A program made the position numbers and the translations under genes. A DNA stretch of 64,000 bases from contig JAITGO010000006.1 of assembly GCA_031280615.1 (NCBI GenBank), positions 124,001 through 188,000 of the forward strand, in the 5' to 3' direction. Shown piece by piece: positions 20,077-21,820 of this stretch. Below the pieces are notes generated by a model that saw nothing but the letters and a program-made list of their open reading frames with translations, searched no databases and was not told the origin of the DNA. Each line of letters starts with the position of its first letter. Position 1 is the first letter of the stretch. This DNA comes from Desulfobulbus sp. (GTDB lineage: Bacteria > Desulfobacterota > Desulfobulbia > Desulfobulbales > Desulfobulbaceae).

Positions 20077-20495
20077 CTCACACCTCATTCCGTAATAGCG
20101 TCTTTTGCCTGGCGCGGCGTCGCCTTGGCCAGACAGAGGTTGGGTCTTCTTTCCGCAGGTTGGGCGACTGGTTTCCGCTTAACGGGTCTTTCGGTAAAAT
20201 GCAAGCAAATTACCGGGCAGCAAACATTCCCGGCCATTCCCGCTCTGCCCGCTTCTCAAAAAAAAGCGGTCGCCACCGACTTTCGCCGGCCCCACCGCGA
20301 CCTGTCGCATTCGGAAGCCACCTCGCAGGTATTGTTATAAATTACCAATTTTTTATTGACAGAGCGGATGCGGTATATTTCCATCTGCGAACATATGCCC
20401 GCCAGGAAAGGAGCGATTCCCGACCGCGGCGGCCTGAGAGCAACAAGGACAGGCCAGACGCCTGACTTCATAAACCCAATCGAGTAGGGGTACCC
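20077..20495. other. Divergent gap before the LysW-like gene
   Basis: This 419-base stretch separates a minus-strand flavodoxin gene from the plus-strand LysW-like gene. I see no gene in it. A short AT-rich tract holds TTGACA (20356-20361) and TATATT (20374-20379), but the 12-base spacing is too short for a normal sigma-70 promoter, so I do not call one. The distal part is GC-rich. The LysW-like start is preceded by TAGGGG. Confidence 0.5.
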
Positions 20496-20732
20496 ATGGC
20501 TGTTGATAAAGAGCACGATGAAGAAGATGTCCAGGTCGAGGAGTGTTCGATCTGTGGCGGCGACATCATCGTGGATGGCTTTTGCGAGGAAGAGGATATT
20601 GTCTACTGCAACGACTGCGAGGCCGAATTCATGATTCGGACGCTCGATCCCCTGCGCCTCAAACTGCTCGATGACGATATCGATGCAGATCTCGATGAAT
20701 CTGATGACCGTTACGACGAGGAATATGACTGA
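20496..20732 (+). CDS. LysW-like acidic zinc-ribbon protein
   Basis: This 78-residue, highly acidic protein has cysteines at 17/20 and 38/41 (CSIC and CNDC) in one zinc ribbon. It is followed directly by 'AEFMIRTLDPLRLKLL', which closely matches LysW/ArgW, the amino-group carrier protein of the AAA-type lysine and arginine routes ('AELEVV.LDPLRLE'). Classical LysW ends in EDWGE, whose last Glu carries the substrate. Here the tail is longer and ends DESDDRYDEEYD, without the WGE end. So the fold is LysW-like but carrier function is doubtful. A ureohydrolase-fold gene follows after 66 bases. Confidence 0.8.
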   Translation: MAVDKEHDEEDVQVEECSICGGDIIVDGFCEEEDIVYCNDCEAEFMIRTLDPLRLKLLDDDIDADLDESDDRYDEEYD

Positions 20733-20798
20733 CAGACTCTCGTCTTCAAGCCAAGGACCCTCTGTTATTATGAATTTGCGCTTTTGAGGTGTTGACGA

Positions 20799-21638
20799 AT
20801 GAATTTCCTCAATTTATCGGCAAAAAAGCCTCCGTACAACCAGGTCAAAGCCGTTATCCTGCCTATCCCCTACAGTGGCACCGGCCGCATTCCCGGCATG
20901 GACAAGGGACCGGAAGCCATTCTCCAGGCCTCGCAGATGCTGTCGGACTACGATGTCGAGACCAACACCGACCTCAACGAGTTGAGTCCGCAAACCCTGG
21001 AGCCCCTGGTCTGTCCGGACAACCGGCAGGACGTTCTGGATGAGATTGCCAACCAAAGCAGCACCCATTTCAAGAAAGGTAAACTGGTCGCCGCCATCGG
21101 TGGCAGCCACTTGATCACCGAGGGATTGGTCCGTGCCGCCCTGGCCCAGGACAACAATCTCAGCGTTCTCCACCTCGGCGCCCACCCGCACCTGATCGAT
21201 CCGATCGCGCCCGACGAACCCGATGTCATGGCGCGGGTCCAGGAAAAATGCATGGTGTCCCATATCGGCATCCGGAGCATGGCCAGGACGGAAAAAAGCA
21301 AAATCCATATCGACAACCTGGTCTTTGCCCGCGACATCTATAACAACGGCCTCAACGCCGCGGCCGATGCCATTGATGTGTTGAGTGAATCCGTATATCT
21401 GGCCATTCACCTGGACATTCTCGATCCGGCCTGCATGCCTGCGGTGGCCAAGCCCGAGCCCGGCGGCCTCGATTGGTACACGCTCAACAACCTGATCCGG
21501 ATGGTGGCCCGGGAAAAGGCGATCGTCGGCTTTGACGTCACCGGCCTGGTCCCCCAGAAAAACGGGCTGCATGCCCACCTGCTCGCCGCCAAGCTGGTCT
21601 ACAAAACCATGATCTGCTGCCTGCGCACCAGCCGCTGA
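20799..21638 (+). CDS. Arginase/agmatinase-fold protein with altered metal site
   Basis: The 279-residue protein follows the ureohydrolase fold throughout: 'VILPIPYSGTGRIPGMDKGPEAIL', 'AAIGGSHLITEG', 'VLHLGAHPHLID', 'AIHLDILDPACMPAV', 'PEPGGLDWYTLNNLIR' and 'VGFDVTGLVP'. In active members the motifs read GGDHS, DAHxD, DxDxxDP and DVVEVNP. Here His104, His129 and Asp206 are kept, but Gly127, His131 and His204 replace metal-binding Asp residues, and Gly249 replaces the catalytic Glu. It is therefore either a non-hydrolase or a metalloenzyme with a different centre. GAGGTG precedes ATG, and it is downstream of the LysW-like gene, probably one transcript. Confidence 0.88.
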   Translation: MNFLNLSAKKPPYNQVKAVILPIPYSGTGRIPGMDKGPEAILQASQMLSDYDVETNTDLNELSPQTLEPLVCPDNRQDVLDEIANQSSTHFKKGKLVAAIGGSHLITEGLVRAALAQDNNLSVLHLGAHPHLIDPIAPDEPDVMARVQEKCMVSHIGIRSMARTEKSKIHIDNLVFARDIYNNGLNAAADAIDVLSESVYLAIHLDILDPACMPAVAKPEPGGLDWYTLNNLIRMVAREKAIVGFDVTGLVPQKNGLHAHLLAAKLVYKTMICCLRTSR

Positions 21639-21655
21639 CCCGTCGATCGCCAGCA

Positions 21656-21696
21656 AACCCGGCCCGGACCCCGCCCAGGGGCGGCCGGGTTTTTGT
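21656..21696 (+). terminator. Terminator after the ureohydrolase-like gene
   Basis: Ten-base arms AAACCCGGCC (21656-21665) and GGCCGGGTTT (21684-21693) with a GC-rich interior are followed by a run of T. The facing MFS gene ends 125 bases away on the other strand, so the hairpin mainly closes the LysW-like/ureohydrolase unit. Confidence 0.8.
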
Positions 21697-21820
21697 TTGG
21701 TGGATGCATGCAAAAGGGCGCGGCACCGGTCCCCTTCCCTCCCCTGTTTGCCCTCACTACCCGCCGCAACTGCCCTCATTCATGTCCCGGCCGAGGGAGC
21801 GGCGGCTGGTGCCGATGGCC

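Follow-up and report, generated by a model that had tools for sequence, protein, structure and literature searches.

An acidic LysW-like zinc ribbon and a pseudo-agmatinase form a conserved gene pair in Desulfobulbus with a possible role in polyamine control

Organization of the locus

The window, a stretch of 64,000 nucleotides of Desulfobulbus sp., contains two adjacent genes on the forward strand, which encode a small acidic zinc ribbon protein and a larger protein with a ureohydrolase fold. In order, the features of the locus are:

20349..20385, + strand: conserved upstream block TTTTTTATTGACAGAG-N8-GGTATATTTC, a probable promoter or operator, from the genus alignment
20496..20732, + strand: LysW-fold acidic zinc ribbon, 78 aa, with CxxC...CxxC, the tail DDDIDADLDESDDRYDEEYD and a match to PF21344
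20733..20798, + strand: intergenic gap, 66 bp, with GAGG ahead of the second gene and no stable fold
20799..21638, + strand: ureohydrolase-fold protein, probably a pseudo-agmatinase, 279 aa, from a PF00491 match, the residue table, the tree and Foldseek
21658..21694, + strand: probable intrinsic terminator behind both genes, a G+C-rich hairpin followed by a T run

Both open reading frames lie where the initial annotation had placed them, with 66 bases between them, and the single terminator that it had proposed for both genes is consistent with the probable hairpin and T run at about 21658-21694, behind the second gene. The stretch 21650-21702 has a folding energy of -29 kcal/mol (z -2.3), and 3 of 200 shuffled sequences were equally stable. 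The pattern scan by itself performs at about chance level, with 3 sites found and 2.1 expected; it gave no site on the + strand between the ribbon and ureohydrolase genes. The upstream block holds TTGACA (20356-20361) and TATATT (20374-20379) at an unusual spacing of 12 bp, and its TTGACAG core is present in 20 of 21 aligned genus rows. This TTGACA-N12-TATATT arrangement ahead of the ribbon gene is spaced more closely than an ordinary sigma-70 promoter. Between 10 and 32 kb of the window no Rfam family scored over its gathering score, and the reading as an RNA regulator was dropped on this ground.

Conservation of the gene pair in the genus

The ribbon is present in all 23 genus genomes and a whole ureohydrolase orthologue (52-100% identity) in 18 of them; a nineteenth orthologue, in G022, is cut by a contig end. 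In every one of the 18 whole copies the ribbon gene lies 64-87 bp upstream of the ureohydrolase gene, counting locus L016, where the ribbon itself is cut by a contig end. Three genomes carry the ribbon with no partner beside it (G001, G014 and G019, of which G014 is 74% complete), and G003, whose ribbon sits at a contig end, is outside the pairing count. The neighbouring genes differ between the genomes, with an FMN reductase, a sigma-54 protein, a hybrid kinase or an arylsulfotransferase upstream and an MFS transporter, YitT or PotA downstream; the pair has hence been kept while its flanks change. The tight pairing pointed out in the initial annotation is thus conserved across the genus genomes, and it exceeds chance.

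Purifying selection acts on the two genes. Among the pairs with dS < 2, which number 95 of 153 for the ureohydrolase and 33 of 153 for the ribbon, dN/dS has a median of 0.141 and 0.104, respectively. Simple gene decay was rejected in view of the median of about 0.14 and the whole reading frames.

The large protein has lost the agmatinase active site

The large protein resembles the agmatinase SpeB in fold, length, placement in the SpeB tree and structural match, the best Foldseek hit being agmatinase 3pzl (E 9e-21). Against the curated agmatinase model TIGR01230 it reaches 150.8 bits, below the cut-off of 174.3 that is passed by the relatives L051 (227.1) and L069 (195.4). The genome of the window (G000) contains this one PF00491 match at E <= 0.001 and no second; some other genus genomes also carry a canonical ureohydrolase.

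In arginase numbering, we take H101, D124, H126, D128, D232 and D234 to be the metal ligands and H141 and E277 to be the catalytic or substrate residues. The protein retains GGSH (His104), and it has GAHPH at 127-131 where canonical enzymes have DAHxD, IHLD at 203-206 for xDxD and DVTGL at 246-250 for DVVEL. When six relatives were aligned with the 18 copies of the genus, D124 was found replaced by Gly or Ala, D128 by His and D232 by His or Asn in all 18 copies, in which H141 is also lost and E277 is Gly. Unlike SpeB, the genus proteins have thus lost three of the six metal ligands and two catalytic residues. H126 and D234 are retained throughout and H101 in 15 of 18, the remaining three having Asn or Tyr. 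In four relatives (L022-L025) all eight residues are intact, and in L020 and L021 the six metal ligands are intact with H141 and E277 replaced. From the initial assignment of an arginase/agmatinase-fold protein, the fold stands (Arginase PF00491, 148.2 bits at a cut-off of 22) and the agmatinase active site does not. The residue pattern speaks against a function as agmatinase, and a ribbon that switches on the ureohydrolase as its activator, as had been suggested, appears unlikely given the loss of metal ligands and catalytic residues in all 18 copies.

By its position in the tree, the protein is related to true agmatinases. In this midpoint-rooted tree of 44 rows (where one gene appears twice, as L023 and L116) the copies of the genus group in a single clade with support 100/100, which joins L020/L021 at 98/97, and both fall within a 97/95 clade that also holds canonical agmatinases, among them L109 and L116. 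The simplest reading of the alignment and tree would be that the catalytic His and Glu were lost first and the metal site, with three of its six ligands, later.

Two further ureohydrolase types were observed. The genomes with L020 and L021 (G087 and G078, respectively) contain no LysW-like match, and they perhaps represent an independent non-catalytic use of a SpeB relative. A third, remote type on a long tree branch (L119, L120, L122; motifs DLDYFD and IDxTG) is clustered with SpeA, CASDH, CASDC and a LysW-like ribbon.

The ribbon differs from LysW-type carrier proteins

With 31.8 bits against Pfam Zn_ribbon_LysW (PF21344, cut-off 27), the small protein is indeed a LysW-like zinc ribbon, as annotated. 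The CxxC...CxxC pattern is invariant in both ribbon alignments (A1 with 9 rows, A2 with 16 rows), and the protein of the window, which has a net charge of -26, is the single ribbon match at E <= 0.001 in its genome. It shares with the LysW and ArgW carriers of Thermus and archaea the four-Cys zinc-ribbon fold, the acidic character and DP(L/I)RL after the second CxxC, and it matches LysW structures weakly in sequence (E 0.0007).

LysW and ArgW act via a C-terminal EDWGE that ends in the acceptor Glu, as described in an excerpt of PMC10433800. In contrast to these carriers, the ribbon has a longer and variable tail. The EDWGE end was found in none of 20 ribbon rows (18 from the genus, 2 from a sister genus), and further genus copies likewise end without it. 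The scores against TIGR01206 (23.9 bits, cut-off 53.2) and NF041070 (20.9 bits, cut-off 75) stay below the curated limits, and LysX (TIGR02144) reached its cut-off in none of the 23 genus genomes, all of which gave weak ATP-grasp matches. The polyamine and sigma-54 context described below also sets the ribbon apart from LysW and ArgW. The initial annotation had recorded the absence of LysX, which holds across the genus, and had considered the ribbon as a possible carrier. The carrier idea was rejected because of the C-terminus, the curated model scores and the lack of LysX over cut-off, which together speak against an amino-acid carrier function. An unfamiliar use of a LysW-like scaffold, as had been proposed, agrees with the conserved pairing and with the lack of any pointer to LysW-dependent lysine or arginine synthesis.

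The carrier type does exist in the phylum: LysW proteins that end in EDWGE were seen in L188 (G082), L161, L162 and L165.

Polyamine genes in the genus

Arginine decarboxylase SpeA scores over cut-off in 19 of the 23 genus genomes, at a separate locus. It is followed in L068, L069, L070, L072, L073 and L075 by genes of the carboxynorspermidine synthase/decarboxylase type, an assignment taken from the L068 copies, in which the synthase match is under and the decarboxylase match over cut-off. A gene like that for agmatine deiminase (AguA) occurs in 14 of the 23 genomes, that of the window included, with scores of 210-236 bits for full-length copies and 147 for a partial one, below the curated cut-off of 381.8. 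A gene resembling that for N-carbamoylputrescine amidase (AguB) adjoins it in L080, where the match is below cut-off, and in L082, where it was recognized by eye. Five genomes without AguA (G004, G011, G013, G014 and G022) have an additional SpeB-like gene, the active-site motifs of which were read for G011 and G014 only. The two are imperfectly complementary, since both are missing from G006, G008, G019 and G020, AguA occurs together with another PF00491 gene in G003, and one more PF00491 match is present in each of G001 and G015. The AguA-like gene in 14 genomes and the SpeB-like gene in five others suggest that the pseudo-agmatinase is probably dispensable for making putrescine. A requirement of the large protein for this purpose was judged unlikely, with the AguA-like gene in 14 of 23 genomes and SpeA with CASDH and CASDC elsewhere.

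In the single-contig genome G019, L074 and L041, SpeA occurs together with a LysW-like ribbon, and neither PF00491 nor AguA gave a match at E <= 0.001.

The pair itself is found next to genes for polyamine uptake in several relatives. It is followed by YitT, PotA, PotB, PotC and PotD in G007 and G015 and, in 5 of 18 short loci (L006, L008, L009, L015, L016), by PotA or by YitT and PotA. A full PotABCD set is present in L056, L058, L062 and L065, directly downstream of the pair in D. elongatus DSM 2908 (L062) and in L065. In G001 the ribbon lies ahead of YitT-PotABCD, and the ureohydrolase is absent there. PotD matches of at least 64% identity were found in 10 of the 23 genus genomes. The genome of the window gave no PotD match and no polyamine gene was seen beside its pair, so that the polyamine link rests on the relatives. 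The ribbon of another genus in the family (L050, L051, L052) is followed by a canonical SpeB and then by SpeA.

An order-wide ribbon family with polyamine and sigma-54 context

Matches to the ribbon alignment occur in 69 of 257 genomes of the order Desulfobulbales. We surveyed all 55 places or clusters outside the genus (46 genomes, including L188 with its true LysW) and compared them with 18 control stretches chosen by hand, of which 14 belong to the same genomes and 4 to genomes of the genus. Polyamine genes lie near the ribbon at 20 of the 55 loci, counting L043 with only a 27%-identity PotD match, and at none of the 18 controls; at the other 35 loci the fetched stretch contains no polyamine gene. 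An NtrC-type activator is near the ribbon at 30 of 55 loci vs 2 of 18 controls, and one or the other at 39 of 55 vs 2 of 18. Two query proteins came from L046 and L051, so these counts include self-matches, and stretches cut by contig ends were counted as misses. At 12 of the 55 loci, L046 included, the ribbon gene and an activator gene are divergently oriented, the activator sharing 69-100% identity with that of L046.

When the -24/-12 consensus that we assumed for sigma-54 was scanned for, 24 of 67 non-genus ribbon genes had such a site at 40-100 bp upstream; the rate was 0.48% in shuffled stretches and 1.96% in 561 other open reading frames. EDWGE is the end of L188 alone among these 67 genes. 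Within the genus, none of seven ribbon genes has a sigma-54-like site at 40-100 bp. When 300 bp were scanned, the best scores there (up to 23.0) lay more than 180 bp upstream, and a sigma-54 promoter in the genus was rejected, as the best-scoring sites are not at the usual distance. No close orthologue of the L046-type activator was found in the genus, with 38% the best identity among the matches listed, and a more distant NtrC-type gene is nearby at 2 of 7 genus loci.

By sequence, the ribbon thus belongs to an order-wide LysW-fold family that is often accompanied by genes for polyamine synthesis or uptake. At some loci it stands beside polyamine genes or sigma-54 activators, with the ureohydrolase absent from the fetched stretch. 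That the ribbon persists without its partner beside it, and sits with polyamine genes where there is no ureohydrolase, indicates a link to polyamine metabolism more broadly. Among 395 genomes of the phylum, a sample that includes genus members, 57 match a ribbon model, mostly weakly. Ten loci fetched outside the order comprise two clear ribbons near a sigma-54 activator (G320, G328), three proteins ending in EDWGE and five weaker matches, and polyamine genes were found at none of them. The association with polyamine genes thus characterizes a subset of the ribbon family within the order.

Two clusters, L109 and L117 (G125 and G094), hold about five different LysW-like ribbon genes beside a sigma-54 activator, an apparent expansion of the family.

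Possible function and alternative explanations

An artificially joined model of the pair gave a pTM of 0.70, about as expected from the ureohydrolase domain alone, with a linker pLDDT below 50. Both domains fold and an interface is not indicated in this model, which came without coordinates or an interface score. The pseudo-agmatinase copies have a mean charge of -4.0 vs -14.6 for the canonical ones; charge complementarity with the ribbon was given no weight, since ribbons without a partner are about equally acidic (-19 to -26). We regard a physical contact between the two proteins, for which the gene pairing is the one argument, as about evenly balanced.

The evolutionary and genomic statements on the pair can be made with high confidence. 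As to its function, we tentatively read the pair as a non-catalytic, polyamine- or agmatine-responsive module of Desulfobulbus that derives from a polyamine-synthesis locus, which is quite possible, if short of probable. The evidence points to a form of polyamine control that has not been described before and away from the lysine-synthesis carrier that the ribbon resembles. Neither protein would then still be a pathway enzyme. The dead agmatinase may still offer a pocket or surface to a ligand, perhaps agmatine or a polyamine, and polycations or a partner protein could attach to the Asp/Glu/Tyr tail of the acidic ribbon. By analogy to pseudoenzyme partners elsewhere, the two might adjust polyamine uptake or synthesis to the polyamine level. 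What we infer is that the proteins bind a ligand, that they touch and that they control uptake or synthesis. A wider form of this proposal, which we consider doubtful, sees in the LysW-fold ribbons of Desulfobulbales a family, so far unrecognised, of polyamine sensors or effectors, frequently transcribed from sigma-54 promoters next to dedicated activators; the Desulfobulbus ribbon would have taken on a dead agmatinase as its dedicated ligand-binding partner, and the system would be the bacterial equivalent of polyamine control by antizyme or prozyme.

Both genes could instead belong to a polyamine regulon and act independently, with a pairing left over from an older operon and no contact between the proteins. 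The three genus genomes that keep the ribbon without an adjacent partner would fit this, as would L114 and L128, where the ribbon accompanies Pot or SpeA in a fetched stretch that lacks a ureohydrolase, and the missing sign of an interface in the joined model. However, the pair is whole in all 18 genus copies though its flanks change, and the gene order is identical with a canonical SpeB in L050-L052 and L109, which makes independence unlikely.

Continued catalysis by the ureohydrolase would require a different reaction, with a new metal in a His-rich pocket (His129, His131, Asp206, often His104 and His204) and the ribbon as accessory. Besides the purifying selection on the gene, the His fixed at D128 and the retention of H126 and D234 in all copies are in line with such a site. 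At fourteen positions all genus copies share a residue that four canonical relatives lack, three of these residues being His (125, 131, 155); the genus-only histidines could thus mean a new function or even a new metal site. The variation at other pocket positions (H101 as Asn or Tyr in 3 of 18, D232 as His or Asn) and the loss of the catalytic His and Glu render a living enzyme improbable.

Still less probable is a role of the ribbon in supplying metal to SpeB-type ureohydrolases, as a metallochaperone, or in their assembly. Such a role has been reported of MetAB and GhaAB with nickel ureohydrolases, whose genes are adjoined by metal chaperone genes in the systems covered by an excerpt of PMC11271267, and the ribbon adjoins ureohydrolases with intact metal motifs elsewhere, e.g. 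in L051, L109, L111 and L118. Against this role, it is kept in all genus genomes although the partner there lacks metal ligands, and the stretches fetched around L040, L114 and L128 show it near Pot or SpeA genes and contain no ureohydrolase. That the ribbon serves as an amino-group carrier, binding an intermediate by its C-terminus, is highly improbable, as the LysW fold, the net charge and the weak match to LysW structures stand against the lack of EDWGE in the genus copies, their variable C-termini and LysX over cut-off in none of 23 genomes.

Precedents and implications

The non-catalytic module that we favour has partial precedents. MetCb of metformin hydrolase likewise has a ureohydrolase fold without the binuclear metal centre and a gene paired with that of its partner; its partner is the active ureohydrolase MetCa, whereas the genome of the window has no second PF00491 match (PMC11271267, in excerpt). 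The arginase-like protein of Trypanosoma brucei is also an inactive ureohydrolase, and the trypanosome polyamine prozymes are inactive paralogues of polyamine enzymes with a regulatory role. The trypanosome case differs in being eukaryotic and in that the prozyme activates an active paralogue, and a zinc ribbon partner is not mentioned in the part of the source considered (PMC10820115). In open-licence PMC full text, agmatinase was not found together with LysW, Desulfobulbus or zinc ribbon, and papers that combine LysW and polyamines were judged off-topic. Searches of the same collection, which were not aimed at polyamine control in sulfate reducers, revealed no comparable protein-based polyamine control system.

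Family names alone would file the ribbon with the amino-acid carriers and the large protein with arginase and agmatinase. The series from canonical to catalytically broken to metal-less SpeB within one order makes a good case of an enzyme becoming a pseudoenzyme. If it is true that the ribbon family senses or obeys polyamines, it would represent protein-based polyamine control in sulfate reducers.
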